From positions 1 to 46,894 of the forward strand of contig JAFQEY010000078.1 of assembly GCA_017398765.1 (NCBI GenBank): a stretch of 46,894 nucleotides of DNA, given 5' to 3'. Below the pieces are notes generated by a model. That model worked only from the letters and a program-made list of their open reading frames with translations, was not told the DNA's origin and did not search any database. The first letter of the stretch is position 1, and every line of letters starts with the position of its first letter. The DNA comes from Akkermansia sp. GTDB taxonomy: Bacteria; Verrucomicrobiota; Verrucomicrobiia; Verrucomicrobiales; Akkermansiaceae. Below, piece after piece: positions 33,077-39,670 of the stretch. The position numbers and the translations under genes are program-made.

Positions 33077-33271
33077 GGTACGGAAAATGGCGGTAATCTG
33101 CTCCCGCCATTATACGCAGCTCCCGCTTACATGGCAATCAGAATTTCCGCCATTCCCGCACGCCGCCTCAGCATGTACACCACACAAATACAGATAACAC
33201 AGGAATCTCCCTGAAGTGGATGTTTTATCTTGAAAAGAGAGTTCTATTATGATAAAAAAAACACGAACCGC

Positions 33272-33424
33272 ATGCGTATATCAACATATACATGCGAACG
33301 GAAAAAAAATCAAACTCTACATCATAAAAACATGCTTACTCCGATAGTTACTACCGGTTCGGCTCAGGTTGAGGGGGGCTGCTGTGACTGCTTCTATATG
33401 CGCTGCGCCTGCGATTACCAATAA
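33272..33424 (+). CDS. Candidate RiPP precursor peptide 1
   Basis: This reading frame is 50 codons from the ATG at 33272; a shorter start at 33332 gives 30. It ends ...QVEGG then CCDCFYMRCACDYQ, with five Cys in the last 14 residues. The second frame beside it ends ...QEAG then YCVCFTANYSCNYQ. The two align without gaps over the last 30 residues, with 11 identities including Glu, Gly, C-x-C-F, C and Y-Q at the end. Both tails stop at the same Gln. A Gly-Gly or Ala-Gly before the Cys-rich tail resembles a leader cleavage site. The downstream radical SAM/SPASM genes make a modified peptide likely. No known family was recognised. A third frame at 33249-33347 (MIKKTRT...) has the best ribosome binding site (AAGAGAG) and may be a translated leader. 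Confidence 0.65.
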   Translation: MRISTYTCERKKNQTLHHKNMLTPIVTTGSAQVEGGCCDCFYMRCACDYQ

Positions 33425-33536
33425 GGCAAATATCAATCCCCGTACGATAGCGAGCATTTTAACAGTTACACAAGCGAATCAGGAGGCAGGTTATTGCGTC
33501 TGTTTCACAGCGAACTACAGCTGCAACTACCAATGA
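33384..33536 (+). CDS. Candidate RiPP precursor peptide 2, overlapping peptide 1
   Basis: A 50-codon frame starts with GTG at 33384 behind GAGGGGGG, an excellent Shine-Dalgarno at five bases' distance. It overlaps peptide 1 by 41 bases in another frame. No ATG, GTG or TTG occurs in this frame between 33387 and the Cys-rich end, so the start must lie inside peptide 1; TTG at 33369 is the only other standard choice. The C-terminal 14 residues YCVCFTANYSCNYQ share C-x-C-F-x5-x-C-[DN]-Y-Q with peptide 1. Two of the five Cys of peptide 1 (core positions 1 and 9) are Tyr here. The leader half is Ala/Ile/Thr-rich and unlike that of peptide 1 except close to the core. The likely role is as substrate of the radical SAM proteins downstream (inference). 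Confidence 0.6.
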   Translation: MTASICAAPAITNKANINPRTIASILTVTQANQEAGYCVCFTANYSCNYQ

Positions 33537-33551
33537 TTCCGCTGAAAGCTC

Positions 33552-33582
33552 CGGCGAGGCTGATAAGGCCTCGCTGTTTTTT
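33552..33582 (+). terminator. Terminator between precursor peptides and radical SAM genes
   Basis: The stem GCGAGGC (33554-33560) / GCCTCGC (33568-33574), with loop TGATAAG, is followed by TGTTTTTT. Position after the peptide stop and about 70 bases before the first enzyme gene suits partial termination, giving more peptide than enzyme mRNA. Confidence 0.8.
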
Positions 33583-33653
33583 CCGGGGCGGAGCCGGAAG
33601 CAGCTTTCCCGCCTCCCCATGATTGCCGCTCACCATCATCTATCCGCCATTTT

Positions 33654-35036
33654 ATGAACACGCTTACGGAAAAAGGAATATTTTTCATACCGGCCGGTGA
33701 AGAGTTCGGTCTGGCAGAAAACGAGGCACTGTACATGGTGTATGCACCGTTGCCCGGACGTTCGTTTTTGATAAAGGGGAGTGAGAAAGCCGACATAGAG
33801 GCAAAACTGCGGCAGCTGTCAGACGCAACGGGTGCAGCATCAGACCCTTTGCAAGCTATGTTTGCTGAGGAGAAACGGCAACAATGGCTCCGCTTCAACA
33901 TCACACCGGAGGATTGCCTGAACCTGACTATCCTGCCCAATCACCGTTGCAATTTTAACTGCACTTACTGCTACTCCGCAGGAGGGCGTTCTGCAGCAGA
34001 GCTGAAAGCGGCTCAGGTGGTATCTCTGGCAGCATGGGCTCTTAAACAGTGCGCACAAAAAAAGAAACCCTGCCGCATCGTGTATCTGGGCGGGGGAGAA
34101 CCTCTTTTATCCTGGGAAATAGTGCGCGAAAGCATTTTGCAGATAGAGGCATGCAACAGCGAATACCATGTCCCGCTGGAATTATCCGTCAGCACCAACG
34201 GTTCTCTGCTCACGGCGGATAAGATAGAGTTTCTGCGAGACCACAGCGTGCATGTTCAAGTGTCTTTTGAGGTACTGGAAGATGTGCAGAATGCCCAGCG
34301 CGGGCATTTCAGACTCGTGCACGCCAACATTCAATCAGCCATTGCCGCCGGCCTGATTCCCGGTATACACTCCGTCATAACTGAGATGAATGTGGAACGC
34401 ATGGAAGAGGTGGTGCGTACTGCACACGAGCAGTACCCCAGTCTGAAAAAACTGGGAATGGAACCGGTGGTGGATGCTCAGCTGCTGGCAGATGCCAGGA
34501 CTGCGGAACACTTCTACCAGCGCTTTTATGCCGGCTATATCAAAGCTGAGAAACTTTGCCGGGAGTACGGAATTGAACTACTGACAGCTTGCAGCAAGGC
34601 ACTGCAAACGGTAAGAACTCATTATTGCGCAGGACAAATCACACTCACACCCCTGGGCACTTTTTCCTCGTGCGAGGCTATCAGCAATCCTGCGGAAAGC
34701 GGCTACCGGGAAGCTGTGTTCGGCAGGTTGAATGACAACGGTGAGCCGGAATTTGACATGCAAAGCTTCCGCCGCTACCACCCGGAAAAACCGGGTTTTG
34801 AGCGCAATGAGTGCAACAGCTGTTGGGCACGCTGGAACTGCGGCGGCGGCTGTAACCACAAGCGCCGCACCCTGTCAGATGAAGTGTTCGCAGAGTACTG
34901 CCGCTTGAACCGCCGCCTCATGGAACACTTTCTGGCAGATAAGCTGCGCCGCGAATATGCTCTGGCTACCCAGGGCGCAGACCTGAATGCGGTGGTAAGC
35001 AACCTCTTCTCTCAACATAAAACATGCCATGAGTAA
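33654..35036 (+). CDS. Radical SAM/SPASM peptide maturase A
   Basis: The 460-residue enzyme has a 95-residue N-terminal region with IPAGEEFGLAE and MVYAPLPGRSFL. The radical SAM cluster follows at C99, C103 and C106 (HRCNFNCTYCYSAGGRS), then GGGEPLLS, STNGSLLT and VSFEVLEDVQNAQRG. The C-terminal SPASM domain has HYCAGQITLTPLGTFSSCEAI and CNSCWARWNCGGGCNHKRR, ending with another Cys in EYC. These are the auxiliary Fe-S ligands used by enzymes that crosslink or otherwise modify peptides. It shares length and N-terminal region with the two other SPASM proteins here. Its substrate is presumably peptide 1 and/or 2. It overlaps the next gene by 8 bases. Confidence 0.88.
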   Translation: MNTLTEKGIFFIPAGEEFGLAENEALYMVYAPLPGRSFLIKGSEKADIEAKLRQLSDATGAASDPLQAMFAEEKRQQWLRFNITPEDCLNLTILPNHRCNFNCTYCYSAGGRSAAELKAAQVVSLAAWALKQCAQKKKPCRIVYLGGGEPLLSWEIVRESILQIEACNSEYHVPLELSVSTNGSLLTADKIEFLRDHSVHVQVSFEVLEDVQNAQRGHFRLVHANIQSAIAAGLIPGIHSVITEMNVERMEEVVRTAHEQYPSLKKLGMEPVVDAQLLADARTAEHFYQRFYAGYIKAEKLCREYGIELLTACSKALQTVRTHYCAGQITLTPLGTFSSCEAISNPAESGYREAVFGRLNDNGEPEFDMQSFRRYHPEKPGFERNECNSCWARWNCGGGCNHKRRTLSDEVFAEYCRLNRRLMEHFLADKLRREYALATQGADLNAVVSNLFSQHKTCHE

Positions 35037-36384
35037 CACAGCCCCCACCCTGCCGGAGGTATACACCATACCGATCGGTGAGCATTTCGGTTGCCACAGT
35101 AATGATGTTCACCTGGCCTACGCTCCGCTGCATGCTGCCTATGGGCTCATGAATGCCGCTGAGGCTCGGCAGTTGCAGGCTGCCCTCAGCAACGGAGGCA
35201 GCACCCGTGAGCAGGAGTTTCTGGCAGCCATACAAGGGCTCTCTCCATCAGCCCTGCTCCCCACGCCGCAAACGCCGGATGATATATGGGAACTTGATTT
35301 GCTCCTGAACAATATCTGCAATTTTCACTGTTCCTACTGCTACTCTGCCGCCGGCAGATCCAACAGGCGTATGCCCGAAACCGCCTGGCACCGCGCCATT
35401 GATTTTGTTTTTGCAGAAAAAAGAAAAGACAAGCTGCCCGTGCGCATTCATTTTTCCGGTGGGGGAGAACCGCTTATCAGCTTCTCAGAGATACGCAAGG
35501 TGGTTGCCTACATAGAGAAAAAACACGCGCGCTGCGGCCGCAGGTACTCATTGGGTATTGTTTCCAACGGCAGTCTCCTGACAGATGAAATCATAACATT
35601 CATCCGCGACAGAAAGATTGATTTAGTCATCTCATTTGAGGTGCTCCCGGAGCTGCAGAACCGGGAGAGAGGTGCCTATGATAAGGTGAAAGCCAATTTG
35701 GAGCGATTACACGAGTTGAAATGCCCGTTCGGCATACGCTCACCGCTGACGGAGGATGCGCTGCCGCTGCTGCCGGTCATGCTGAACACCCTGAAATCGG
35801 AGTATCCCTATATCACACAGCTGACGGTGGAACCGGTGCACTCACCGGAATGGTACGGTACCCCGGAGAAGCTGCAGCGTTATTTTGACCTGTTTTATGA
35901 GACATACACCCAAGCATACGAACAGGCAGAGAAACTGGGTATCAGCCTGGGCAGCAACAGCTTCTCCCTGCTCAAATACCGCCGCAAGGCCAAATGCATG
36001 TGCAAAATGGTGGTCACGGCAGAGGGCACTATCTCCTACTGTGCCCGTGTAGCTTCCTCCACCGAACCGCTGTACAACAATTTTGTCTACGGCTCATGCA
36101 ACTGCCCGGATTCCGACACTGCGGTGTTCGACACGGCCAGGTTTGCTGAGATAAACCGCCACAATATCATGGAACAACCGGCATGCCGACACTGCTATGC
36201 CCGCTGGAACTGTGGCGGAGACTGCAGCCTGTTCCACCAGACATACCCCGAGGCCTGCTACGAGGTATCCTGTGACTTTACACGGAGATGCCTGGTATGG
36301 GAAATGCTGCGCAACATACGCCGGAATTTCGAAAATGAGCATCCCGGCCAGGATTTTGAGCAATATGTACGCGACTCCGTCTGA
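35029..36384 (+). CDS. Radical SAM/SPASM peptide maturase B
   Basis: The 451-residue paralogue of maturase A starts inside the end of the A gene (8-base overlap). N-terminal VYTIPIGEHFG and LAYAPLHAAYGLM match A and C. The radical SAM Cys are C97, C101 and C104 (NICNFHCSYCYSAAGRS), followed by SGGGEPLIS and SNGSLLT. The SPASM part is more divergent: MCKMVVTAEGTISYCARV, then a Cys-containing insertion (YGSCNCPDSDT), then CRHCYARWNCGGDC and SCDFTRRC. The divergence, compared with A and C, suggests a different peptide or a different bond. It is co-transcribed with A and overlaps the formyltransferase-like gene by 20 bases. Confidence 0.87.
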   Translation: MSNTAPTLPEVYTIPIGEHFGCHSNDVHLAYAPLHAAYGLMNAAEARQLQAALSNGGSTREQEFLAAIQGLSPSALLPTPQTPDDIWELDLLLNNICNFHCSYCYSAAGRSNRRMPETAWHRAIDFVFAEKRKDKLPVRIHFSGGGEPLISFSEIRKVVAYIEKKHARCGRRYSLGIVSNGSLLTDEIITFIRDRKIDLVISFEVLPELQNRERGAYDKVKANLERLHELKCPFGIRSPLTEDALPLLPVMLNTLKSEYPYITQLTVEPVHSPEWYGTPEKLQRYFDLFYETYTQAYEQAEKLGISLGSNSFSLLKYRRKAKCMCKMVVTAEGTISYCARVASSTEPLYNNFVYGSCNCPDSDTAVFDTARFAEINRHNIMEQPACRHCYARWNCGGDCSLFHQTYPEACYEVSCDFTRRCLVWEMLRNIRRNFENEHPGQDFEQYVRDSV

Positions 36385-36916
36385 CAGAACGTGTGTATTG
36401 TTCACCAACCGTTACAGCGAGTTGATACCGGCACTGATGAGGGTCAGGCGTCTGCTGTGCATTGTCCACCCCACAGAACCGCAGGAGCAGATAGGCGAGC
36501 TCAGGGCGCGCTGTCCTGCCGGAGTAGCCCTGCTCAGCTACACCCCCGGCAGGGCAGATGCCACGGCACAAGAGCTGCGCCGTTTATCCCCGAGCCTGAT
36601 TATCACCTACTCCTTCCAACACATCCTGCCGGCGGATTATTTATCCGTTTGTCCCGGCATCAATCTCCACCCCAGCCTGCTGCCGGCCTACCCGGGGCTC
36701 AACCCCTGGCAAGAACAGATAAGAGACGGGGTCAAGGAAAGTGGCTACACCATACACCGCCTGACTCCGCAGGCAGATGCCGGGCAGATTTTGTGCCGAG
36801 TTTCCTACACATGGCTGGACCCGCTGCCGGAGCCGGCTGAGCTCAGGGACAGCTCTCTTCGTCTCTACGCCATACCGCTGCTGCTGAACTTACTGGCCAA
36901 TAACAAAGATTTATGA
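36365..36916 (+). CDS. Small formyltransferase-fold protein in the peptide locus
   Basis: The 183-residue protein has the GART/methionyl-tRNA-formyltransferase core. It contains LIITYSFQHILP, the catalytic INLHPSLLPAYPGLNPWQEQI (Asn and His of the N-x-H-P-S-x-L-P motif) and QADAGQIL with its Asp. The fold transfers a formyl group from 10-formyl-tetrahydrofolate. The protein has no long C-terminal domain like Fmt. The substrate is unknown, but the position between the SPASM enzymes and a B12-type radical SAM gene, with overlaps on both sides, points to a peptide or an intermediate of peptide modification. I chose the ATG at 36365. A longer frame (36197) would reach far into the maturase B gene. 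Confidence 0.82.
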   Translation: MYATPSDRTCVLFTNRYSELIPALMRVRRLLCIVHPTEPQEQIGELRARCPAGVALLSYTPGRADATAQELRRLSPSLIITYSFQHILPADYLSVCPGINLHPSLLPAYPGLNPWQEQIRDGVKESGYTIHRLTPQADAGQILCRVSYTWLDPLPEPAELRDSSLRLYAIPLLLNLLANNKDL

Positions 36917-38307
36917 TTTCTCCCAACGCAAACAATCGAATCTTATTTGTTATCCCCGCCTACCGCATGTACAACCGCGGCATTTATATCATGCCGCTGG
37001 GTATACTGTATGTATCTGCTGCGGCACGCGCCGCCGGCGCAGAGGTAGACTGTATCAACCTTAACCACGAGAAGGAAGATGCGCTCAGCGCGCTTTCTGA
37101 GCGCATTCGGCAGAGCGGGTGCACACTGGTGGCCGTGGGCGGACTTTCCGGTGAGTTTCAGGATTTGTATGACGTGCTGCGCCATGTCAAACAGAACCAC
37201 CCGCATATCACCACCATTGCAGGCGGCGGTATCATTACCGCCGCACCGAAAGTTGCCATGCAGGCTCTTGAGTACGCCGATATAGGCATTATCGGTGAGG
37301 GAGATGAAACCATTGTTGATTTACTGCAAACAATCAAGCGTGGAGGCAGCATCAGCACTGTTGCGGGAATTATCTATGAACACAAGGGTGAGTGGATAAT
37401 GAGCAAACCGCGCCCCGATGTTCAGGACCTGGATTCTCTGCCACTGCCGGATTATGAGAGTTTCGGCTTTTCTCATTATCTGGCCACCAACAACATGGGC
37501 TACGGTAAACGGAAAGAACTTCTTTCTCCGGTAAATATAGTGGGTAGCCGCTCCTGCCCCTATCGGTGTACATTCTGTTTTCACCCCTCCGGGCGCACCT
37601 ACCGGGAGCGCAGCCTGGACTCTGTTTTTGCGGAAATAGACTACCTGCTCGCAACATACCCCGGTATTAACCACATTGCCATGAGAGAGGAGCTCTTTGC
37701 CTCCCGCCCGGAACGTATCCGCGAGTTCTGCCGCAGAATCTCCGCTTACAAGCTGTACTGGACTATCCAATTACGGGTGGACAACGTATCCGCACCGGTG
37801 TTGGAGGATCTGAATCAGGCCGGGTGTTTTGCGGTGTTTCTGGGTACGGAAAGCATGGATAACACCGTGCTGCGCAGCATGAATAAACGCGTTACTGCGG
37901 AGCAATCATGCCAGGTGCTGGAAATGGCAAAACAGGCAGGTGTCCCCATCCGCACCGGGCTTATTTTTGGTGATAAGGCAGAAACCCGGGAGAGCTACCG
38001 GCGCACACTGGACTGGTACCACCGGCAGGATTCGTACAATACAGAGCAAAGGCGGCCTTTTATCACCGTGGATATGCTGGTTCCCTTTCCCGGCTCTGCA
38101 ATCTACCGCTATGCCTGCAGCAAGGGAATCATACGTGATGAGGTGGAATACCTGCGCATGGGGTGCCCGCTGGTCAATCTGACTACCATGTCTGAGGAGG
38201 AATTTCTGGAGATGATGCGCAGTATTCAAGCCATCAACGGCAGGACATATCGGTATTTGAGCGGAAACACGCTGCGTGAAATCCCCCCGCCACCCCTCTG
38301 GGGCTGA
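36913..38307 (+). CDS. B12-binding-type radical SAM protein
   Basis: The 464-residue protein starts with a Rossmann-like domain (about residues 8-140) of the B12-binding type, with IPAYRMYNRGIYIMPLGILYVSAAARAAGAEVDCINL, GLSGEFQDL, AGGGIITAAP and GEGDETIVDLL. The radical SAM domain follows, with Cys at 215, 219 and 222 (GSRSCPYRCTFCFHPSGRTYRERS). The DxHxxG cobalamin-binding triplet is not seen, and the nearest is NLNHEKED, so base-off/His-on B12 binding is doubtful. Related enzymes methylate or rearrange unactivated carbons. Its ATG overlaps the formyltransferase stop (36913-36916), making the whole train a single operon. Confidence 0.83.
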   Translation: MISPNANNRILFVIPAYRMYNRGIYIMPLGILYVSAAARAAGAEVDCINLNHEKEDALSALSERIRQSGCTLVAVGGLSGEFQDLYDVLRHVKQNHPHITTIAGGGIITAAPKVAMQALEYADIGIIGEGDETIVDLLQTIKRGGSISTVAGIIYEHKGEWIMSKPRPDVQDLDSLPLPDYESFGFSHYLATNNMGYGKRKELLSPVNIVGSRSCPYRCTFCFHPSGRTYRERSLDSVFAEIDYLLATYPGINHIAMREELFASRPERIREFCRRISAYKLYWTIQLRVDNVSAPVLEDLNQAGCFAVFLGTESMDNTVLRSMNKRVTAEQSCQVLEMAKQAGVPIRTGLIFGDKAETRESYRRTLDWYHRQDSYNTEQRRPFITVDMLVPFPGSAIYRYACSKGIIRDEVEYLRMGCPLVNLTTMSEEEFLEMMRSIQAINGRTYRYLSGNTLREIPPPPLWG

Positions 38308-38320
38308 GCCGCATTCAACC

Positions 38321-39670
38321 TCACTGCGGCTCGGGGGTAAAAGGGTCGGGCATGCCCAGCTTTCTATAGGCAGCGCGAACCCGGCTCACCAGAGTATAGA
38401 GCAACAGCTTACGCGTGAACTGACAATACTGAGCAAAAACCTCTTCCCCAAGCTGCTCCCGCCTGTAGCGGCAGCCGCCGCCGCAATTCCACCGCGCCCA
38501 GCAGGTTTGGCACGCCGGCGGCAAAGAGGTACCGGGGGGCGGATAAAATGCTGCAAAAGCTTCGGGTGACACCTCCACGCGTCCCGCTCTGATTTTTCCG
38601 TACAGGTAGTGTTCAAAGTGTCCGTCTGCCTCATCGCTCTCAAACTCACAGGCAGATATAAACCCCTGTGGGGTAAGCACCGCCTGGGGGCCGCAGAAAT
38701 GCGTGCGGAGCATATCTGCACTGCCATAGTCTGTACAGGTAAGCTGCAAGCCGTGAGCCGCAGCTGTTTCCACTGCCCGGGTAAAACCCTCATAAAACCG
38801 GTGGTAAAAGGATTCTGCCGCAGCGGGGGTACAAAGAAGCCCTGCATCCACCACAGGCTCCAGACGCAGGTGGCGCACCGCCGGGTAATGCAGCCGTGTC
38901 AGCTGCACCATTTCGCTCATTCGGTGCAGGTTCAGCTCCGTGATAACCGCCCTCAGGGCAAAGGGCAACCCAAGCTCCTGCATGCGAAGCAGATTGGCAT
39001 GAACGCGGGCATACTGACCGCGCTGAGTATCCTGTATCTCCGGTATCACCTCAAAAGACACATGCACATGGACCCTGTATTGCTTGAAAAAGGCTATGTG
39101 TTCATCTGTTATAAGTGAGCCGTTGGTGATGATGATATATCCCAACTGTACATGTTGAGCCTGAGCGCGGGCAGACATCTCCGCCATACAACGAGAGATG
39201 CACCCCCAGGAAAGCAAGGGTTCACCACCACCGATAAAAGCTACCGTCAGCGCAGTACCGGGTTCTCTACGCAACGCAATAAACCACTCAAAAGCGGACA
39301 TTATCTGCTCAAAAGTCAACTCTTGCTTATTACGCCCACGTGCGGAATAACAGTATGAACAGGAAAAATTGCACCGTTGATTCGCCAGAATGCACAAACG
39401 CCGGATTCGGGGTATTTCCACCGTCCGGGTCAACAGGGCCTGCTTCTTATCTGCCGCAAAGAGGGCACGCAGCGGTTCTTCCTGCGGGGCTGTACCGGCG
39501 GCCGCAGCTGCCAGTCTCTCTCTTACCGCCACCGCCTCCTGACTATCACACAGCAGGCTTTGTCCGGTCAGCGGCGAGTATATGAGCCACCATGACTCAT
39601 CCTGCGCCCCGAGCACACTTCCTGCCGGAACCATATATACATCATCCTGCTGAAATATACCGCTGGCCAT
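38321..39670 (-). CDS. Radical SAM/SPASM peptide maturase C
   Basis: The 449-residue third paralogue faces the other way and ends 13 bases from the B12-type gene. It has VYMVPAGSVLG and LIYSPLTGQSLL at the N-terminus. The radical SAM Cys are C100, C104 and C107 (NQRCNFSCSYCYSARGRN), followed by GGGEPLLS and TNGSLIT. The SPASM part has HFCGPQAVLTPQGFISACEF and CQTCWARWNCGGGCRYRRE, ending with QYC. It is closer in motifs to A than to B. I chose the ATG at 39670 because its N-terminus then aligns with A; an earlier ATG at 39718 is possible. No precursor with the C-x-C-F motif was found just upstream of it. Confidence 0.85.
   Translation of the reverse strand: MASGIFQQDDVYMVPAGSVLGAQDESWWLIYSPLTGQSLLCDSQEAVAVRERLAAAAAGTAPQEEPLRALFAADKKQALLTRTVEIPRIRRLCILANQRCNFSCSYCYSARGRNKQELTFEQIMSAFEWFIALRREPGTALTVAFIGGGEPLLSWGCISRCMAEMSARAQAQHVQLGYIIITNGSLITDEHIAFFKQYRVHVHVSFEVIPEIQDTQRGQYARVHANLLRMQELGLPFALRAVITELNLHRMSEMVQLTRLHYPAVRHLRLEPVVDAGLLCTPAAAESFYHRFYEGFTRAVETAAAHGLQLTCTDYGSADMLRTHFCGPQAVLTPQGFISACEFESDEADGHFEHYLYGKIRAGRVEVSPEAFAAFYPPPGTSLPPACQTCWARWNCGGGCRYRREQLGEEVFAQYCQFTRKLLLYTLVSRVRAAYRKLGMPDPFTPEPQ

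Follow-up and report, generated by a model that had tools for sequence, protein, structure and literature searches.

A conserved cassette of Cys-rich precursor peptides, radical SAM/SPASM enzymes and a formyltransferase-like protein in four Akkermansia genomes, probably encoding a RiPP

We describe a compact gene cassette from Akkermansia sp., in which two short Cys-rich peptide frames precede a set of radical S-adenosylmethionine (radical SAM) enzymes, and which we read as a locus for a ribosomally synthesized and post-translationally modified peptide (RiPP). The cassette lies within the 46,894 nucleotides analysed here (the window), contig C77 of a 2.16 Mb genome (G000) that is 84% complete, and was compared with a genus set of 76 genomes, 55 of which show at least 90% completeness and at most 5% contamination. 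On the forward strand, the precursor P1 (MLTPIVTTGSAQVEGG-CCDCFYMRCACDYQ, 33332-33424) and its divergent second copy P2 (TIASILTVTQANQEAGYCVCFTANYSCNYQ, 33444-33536) are followed by a terminator-like hairpin at 33552-33576, ten pairs and then TTTTTT, which separates precursors from enzyme genes as a preliminary description of this DNA had proposed. The overlapping enzyme train recognised there spans 33654-38307 with gaps of -8, -20 and -4 nt and comprises the radical SAM/SPASM enzymes SPASM-A (460 residues, 33654-35036) and SPASM-B (451 residues, 35029-36384), a formyltransferase-like protein of 183 residues that consists of the catalytic domain only (36365-36916) and a B12-binding radical SAM protein of 464 residues (36913-38307). 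A third radical SAM/SPASM gene, SPASM-C, indeed converges from the right on the reverse strand (38321-39670); its frame is open to 39718, with the ATG at 39670 as the most likely start. Pfam assigns all five enzymes, with E-values of 4.9e-12 for SPASM-B, 1.7e-13 for SPASM-C, 1.3e-15 (PF02310) and 2.5e-18 (PF04055) for the B12-binding protein and 2.3e-19 (PF00551) for the formyltransferase, the latter run on a longer frame from 36197. This longer frame was itself a candidate for the formyltransferase gene and was replaced by the frame from the ATG at 36365 on the evidence of the relatives. The radical SAM motif CxxxCxxC is present in the three SPASM enzymes and, at residue 215, in the B12-binding protein, and the SPASM motif CxxCx5Cx3C in all three SPASM enzymes, as reported earlier. 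An Rfam scan of the window returned two tRNAs only and no riboswitch.

Relatives of SPASM-A with 60-78% identity occur in three more Akkermansia genomes, G006 (locus L040), G008 (L039) and G023 (L041), and the precursors found upstream of each of them share the build of the window peptides. Strong matches to the precursors (E <1e-14, nine places), to SPASM-A (E <1e-40), to the B12 enzyme (E <1e-60) and to the formyltransferase (orthologues at about 1e-98) are restricted to the same four of the 76 genomes, with SPASM-B in each and SPASM-C in two. Enzymes that recur without a peptide, or frames that are not conserved, which had been named as grounds for abandoning a RiPP locus, were thus not encountered: peptides, SPASM-A and SPASM-B, formyltransferase and B12 enzyme never match strongly apart from each other. 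This co-occurrence supports the earlier interpretation as a RiPP locus, which had to be corrected in start codons, peptide motif and the status of P2. The all-peptide precursor profile contains the nine peptides themselves, and a separate test was therefore made with an independent profile of the seven peptides of G006, G008 and G023, with which the window's genome was searched in six frames; it ranks P1 first (E 1.4e-18) and P2 second (3.1e-6), with the next place at 0.12. Weaker matches of the all-peptide profile cover only parts of it, the best at E 0.0035 (G042), and 36 of the 76 genomes hold something at E up to 1. Weaker formyltransferase matches (1e-18 and above) in 75 of the 76 genomes are presumably housekeeping PurN- and Fmt-type enzymes, judged by frame length. 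It might be argued that the peptides are stand-alone metal binders merely adjoining an unrelated enzyme operon, since 14-18 residues accommodate four to five Cys, partly arranged as CC and CxC pairs. We regard this as extremely unlikely, because peptides and enzymes are never found apart in the 76 genomes despite differing flanks, and the Cys-free leader is conserved too.

Alignment of nine homologues revealed precursors of 30-34 residues with a leader of 16 residues (MLTPIV... in most) and a core of 14-18 residues of the form CCDxF...CxC[DN]YQ, from which single peptides deviate. In P1, the leader would comprise residues 1-16 and the core residues 17-30. The other genomes encode MLTPIVTVGSSQADAG-CCDVFGYGGGARCTCNYQ and MLTPIVATGSTQVEGG-CCDVFFPDCTCNYQ (G008), MLTPIVTTSSAQVEGG-CCDCFSMRCACDYQ, MITGILTVSQEYQDSG-CCDCFTMGCTCNYQ and MLTPIIATSSAQVEGG-CCDCFSMPCACYYQ (G006), and MLTPIVTVGSSQADAG-CCDVFGYGGGARCSCNYQ and MLPPIVIVNTVQADAG-CCDVSGYGGTIGCICNYQ (G023). 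Of the two Cys-rich frames described before, the ends stand (...CDYQ* at 33424 and ...CNYQ* at 33536), but the start of the first, the shared motif and the equal status of the second do not. The motif C-x-C-F, previously taken as common to the peptides, is confined to G000 and G006, which carry SPASM-C, and gives way to the build above. A 64-residue P1 starting from TTG 33230 was rejected, since the relatives share an aligned ATG corresponding to 33332, which leaves P1 with 30 residues. All ten peptides contain three to five Cys, and the C-terminal CxC[DN]YQ is among their most conserved parts; the middle of the core is variable, and copies within one genome differ. The leader is free of Cys and conserved as protein, with Gly16 invariant, and Lys is absent from every precursor. 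Between P1 and its G006 relative, 9 of 11 base differences fall at third codon positions (nonsynonymous rate dN 0.029, synonymous rate dS 0.75), as do 11 of 13 between the first precursors of G008 and G023 (dN 0.026, dS 0.68). Together, the independent profile and the codon changes in P1 indicate that the two frames of the window are more than chance. When tested on longer frames, the precursors matched no family in Pfam or NCBIfam. A RiPP locus generally pairs a short encoded precursor, conserved in its leader and variable in its core, with genes for modifying enzymes, and this layout is seen here. A database protein of 43 residues, P0121, ends in MLTPIVTTGSAQVDGGCCDCFYMRCACDYQ and is a near-identical further copy of P1.

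P2 cannot be ranked as an equal partner of P1, as initially assumed. Its relative in G006 (L040:1827-1919) starts with ATG and carries the core CCDCFTMGCTCNYQ, whereas P2 in the window has ACG at the aligned start and the core YCVCFTANYSCNYQ, with Tyr, Val and Tyr at positions 1, 3 and 9, where the G006 peptide has Cys, Asp and Cys. We therefore consider P2 probably a decaying copy; alternatively it may be translated from a different start, with the upstream TTG resulting in overlap with P1.

A hairpin with a T-run lies behind precursors in all four genomes. It separates the last precursor from the enzymes in G000, G006 and G008, but in G023 it is found behind the first precursor only; G006 has two precursor hairpins. 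Since a terminator scan of the window gives 12 such sites against 6.6 expected, the weight of the hairpin derives from the similar hairpins that trail precursors in the three other genomes. Its position suits production of abundant precursor and less enzyme, or attenuation. In its strict form, the latter would make the Cys-rich frames leader peptides at whose Cys codons stalled ribosomes control the terminator, with the enzymes acting on some other substrate; a short Cys-rich frame, a terminator and an operon in three genomes, and partly in the fourth, match this classical layout. Nevertheless, we hold it to be very unlikely, as G023 has no hairpin between its last precursor and SPASM-A, the 16-residue leader is Cys-free and conserved as protein, copies have multiplied together with their own terminators (two identical hairpins in G008, two hairpins in G006) and the enzymes resemble peptide maturases.

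Assignment of the enzymes to known families was attempted with NCBIfam, scoring at most the 25 best families per protein, and no cassette enzyme reaches the cut-off of any family among the matches listed. By Pfam and Cys motifs, the SPASM proteins are of the peptide-maturase type, and the NCBIfam models that score highest for them, though below cut-off, describe peptide maturases. The nif11-like peptide maturase model TIGR04064 (cut-off 518.7 bits) is best for SPASM-A (102.2) and SPASM-C (99.6) and second for SPASM-B (99.5). The PapB-family ranthipeptide maturases of the freyrasin type, NF047865 (cut-off 340), are best for SPASM-B (109.8) and second for SPASM-A (89.4) and SPASM-C (98.6). PapB-type precursors carry a series of Cys-x-x-x-Asp/Glu units, which the cassette precursors do not have. 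In the fold search, SPASM-A resembles the thioether synthase CteB, with PDB entries 5wgg and 5why, which we take to be this SCIFF ranthipeptide maturase (TIGR03974); against that model, SPASM-A, SPASM-B and SPASM-C score 73.5, 81.2 and 70.7 bits at a cut-off of 425. The CteB/SCIFF system differs further from the cassette, which combines two or three SPASM enzymes with a formyltransferase and a B12 enzyme, and SCIFF precursors are defined in PMC8326336 by six Cys in about forty-five residues, compared to three to five Cys in 30-34 residues here. The label ranthipeptide was accordingly rejected and the name withheld, because scores stay below two maturase cut-offs and the Cys count differs. A further fold-search match of SPASM-A is TigE (PDB 8vpo) at 14% identity, and no paper on TigE/TigB was found in open-licence PubMed Central (PMC). 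Residues 10-79 of SPASM-A are predicted to form three strands and then three helices, resembling a RiPP recognition element (RRE); the CteB and TigE rows extend over this region, and parts outside residues 81-424 are barely tested by the search. SPASM-A is thus predicted to carry an RRE-like N-terminus, and SPASM-B and SPASM-C are homologous to it in their N-terminal regions.

The formyltransferase scores 70.3 bits against PF00551 (cut-off 26.1) and contains N100-x-H102 ... D138, invariant in all four loci, residues which we take from the E. coli enzymes to be catalytic; on these grounds it is a member of the 10-formyl-tetrahydrofolate formyltransferase superfamily. PurN, Fmt, ArnA and the formylation (F) domain of linear gramicidin synthetase share PF00551 with N-x-H...D, and the gramicidin domain (5es5), which adds formyl to the amine of an amino acid on a peptide synthetase, is among the matches at E 9.4e-9; unlike all of these, the cassette protein is a lone 183-residue domain in a RiPP-like operon. 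The B12 enzyme combines domains, B12-binding and radical SAM, that are common to HpnJ (TIGR03471; 135.6 bits, cut-off 577.6), the PhpK family (TIGR04479; 122.1, cut-off 600) and the RiPP enzymes ApyD (NF050148; 118.8, cut-off 750) and rSAM_ocin_1 (TIGR03975; 108.2, cut-off 281.85). As the best score belongs to a hopanoid enzyme and all lie below cut-off, its reaction is not readable from its family.

The four cassettes fall into two subtypes. SPASM-B, formyltransferase and B12 enzyme pair G000 with G006 (76, 66 and 82% identity) and G008 with G023 (85, 71 and 83%), whereas SPASM-A of G008 is nearest to G000 (78%), followed by G006 (74%) and G023 (62%). In addition, the leader of the second G008 precursor equals that of the window's P1 at 44 of 48 bases and that of the first precursor in its own locus at only 34 of 48, but downstream of its stop, 59 of 60 bases are the same as after the first G008 precursor. 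Owing to these conflicting pairings, leaders, cores and enzymes look recombined between cassettes. SPASM-C has a protein of 70-71% identity in G006 and is absent from the loci and genomes of G008 and G023, where only SPASM-A and SPASM-B match. Core position 4 is Cys in all five peptides of G000 and G006, P2 included, and Val in all four of G008 and G023. Presence of SPASM-C therefore goes with the extra core Cys, two genomes against two, which with four genomes in two groups we treat as a lead only. As a separate observation, the two precursor genes in L039:2188-2563 of G008 share the same 31-base terminator hairpin and nearly identical trailing DNA yet differ in their leaders, perhaps the trace of a recent gene conversion.

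The cassette is a real, conserved RiPP-type locus with an unusual enzyme set, of a known kind and new at the family level as far as searched. We consider it very probable that in these four Akkermansia genomes it encodes a RiPP whose family is absent from the sources searched, with a chemistry predicted from the enzymes. We propose a model in which termination behind the precursor gene would favour precursor, with enzyme made in smaller amounts by read-through. Binding of the 16-residue leader would fall to the RRE-like N-terminus of SPASM-A, and probably to those of SPASM-B and SPASM-C, whereupon the SPASM enzymes would link Cys sulfur of the CCDxF...CxC[DN]YQ core to carbon atoms. The CteB-like fold and the wealth of Cys in the core make links of the thioether type rather likely. 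SPASM-C would add a link using the extra Cys at core position 4, a step to which we give somewhat less than an even chance. For the B12 enzyme, methylation of a carbon or some other radical change is envisaged, with methylation as the favoured option. A peptidase would then cleave behind the invariant Gly16 and the formyltransferase could cap the new amino end, for and against which the balance appears even; with no Lys in any precursor, the amino terminus is the only primary amine. Taken to its full extent, the model describes a new RiPP class, in which a Cys-rich peptide of 14-18 residues is multiply cross-linked by two to three SPASM enzymes, C-methylated and N-formylated by a dedicated folate-dependent enzyme, with core Cys number matched to SPASM number (four with two, five with three) and a shuffling of leaders, cores and enzymes between subtypes; this we put forward tentatively, as a combination that is possible though doubtful as a whole.

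Several points weigh against these proposals. The reading at DNA level comes from four loci, and the link between SPASM-C and the extra Cys is confounded with subtype, since SPASM-B, formyltransferase and B12 enzyme divide the genomes in the same way. Genes this short offer thin codon evidence: the six changes between P1 and P3 of G006 are distributed 3, 1 and 2 over the codon positions, and dN is high, with dS largely saturated, in pairs that involve a P2. A consensus promoter was not detected ahead of P1 on the strand that encodes it, few fold-search rows cover the RRE-like part of SPASM-A, and the formyltransferase may have a substrate other than the peptide. Ten flanking proteins scanned include no transporter, and no peptidase is common to the four loci, with an M24 peptidase (pepP) next to the cassette in the window and an M48 peptidase next to that of G008; C39 peptidases were not found in G000 or G006 and match weakly on other contigs in G008 and G023. 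The failure to find an exporter or a bacteriocin-type peptidase next to the cassette would also suit precursors of a redox cofactor or metallophore for internal use, comparable to pyrroloquinoline quinone (PQQ) or mycofactocin, and not secreted or antimicrobial. Tyr serves as source residue in PQQ and mycofactocin, and few parts of the peptides here are as well conserved as CxC[DN]YQ. However, we judge this explanation unlikely, considering that the cassette occurs in just 4 of 76 genomes in different surroundings and that a variable core middle and differing copies per genome better suit a diversifying product.

If a RiPP is made, the family would be compact, with a 30-residue precursor and four or five enzymes, and easy to reconstitute, and comparison of loci with and without SPASM-C and the extra Cys could tie a single enzyme to a single residue. 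Despite much work on Akkermansia as a gut genus, a full-text search of open-licence PMC for the genus together with radical SAM and RiPP or precursor peptide found no paper, which is weak evidence of absence. Searching the same source for formyltransferase with RiPP terms gave no such locus by title or abstract start among the matches listed, so that the pairing of SPASM chemistry with a formyltransferase is without precedent among them. In the portions of text available, the formyl mention of PMC12858407 concerns synthetase domains, the tables of PMC4289311 include two Verrucomicrobia genomes with no occurrence of 'Akkermansia', 'formyl' or 'SPASM', PMC8692599 contains neither 'Akkermansia' nor 'formyl', and PMC10352776 contains none of 'formyl', 'B12' and 'cobalamin'.

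Flanking genes differ among the four genomes, and the shared part therefore marks the cassette. It adjoins pepP and tRNA-Gln in the window, polyphosphate kinase and phosphoribosylglycinamide synthetase in G006, a lipase-3 and the M48 peptidase frame upstream in G008, and a kinase-ankyrin protein and an AAA protein in G023. The protein kinase with its many ankyrin repeats lies directly upstream of the G023 cassette (L041:297-2570). An empty insertion site was sought beside pepP, which is present in 56 of 59 genomes; none of 30 loci, 29 of them from other genomes (flanks up to 1.5 kb), has YraN, RNase HII or tRNA-Gln nearby, and insertion is therefore not demonstrable.

Beyond the genus, 387 genomes drawn from the phylum gave distant SPASM-A relatives at E <1e-18 in G183, G216 and G078 (1e-28 to 1e-23), which are far from orthologous; no similar peptide or operon was found at their loci among frames of 20-110 residues with at least four Cys near the end, or by eye. 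IMG/VR yielded no homologue of the cassette enzymes, and plasmids only SPASM relatives, 20-27% identical in the 15 listed of 44 records. Database proteins P0002-P0013, from metagenome contigs, are closer relatives of SPASM-A, at 50-84% identity. Within G000, a separate SPASM protein with a 471-residue open frame (C44:10523-11536, L086) reaches 210 bits with the PapB family model (cut-off 340). Many further Akkermansia genomes have SPASM-A matches of similar strength, which may represent a second SPASM system that is widespread. Thirteen SPASM-A relatives (P0014-P0026) are 631-794 residues long, and P0014 and P0019 each consist of two radical SAM/SPASM halves fused in tandem, a hint that such enzymes may act in pairs in other systems as well. 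The longest contigs of P0002 and P0121 (3565), P0010 and P0126 (4992) and P0005 and P0029 (6511) are equal in size, as are those of P0133, a formyltransferase with 48% identity over half its length, and P0056, a SPASM protein with 34% identity (both 9296). This suggests that each pair shares a contig, and a more distant locus may thus join SPASM protein P0056 and formyltransferase P0133.

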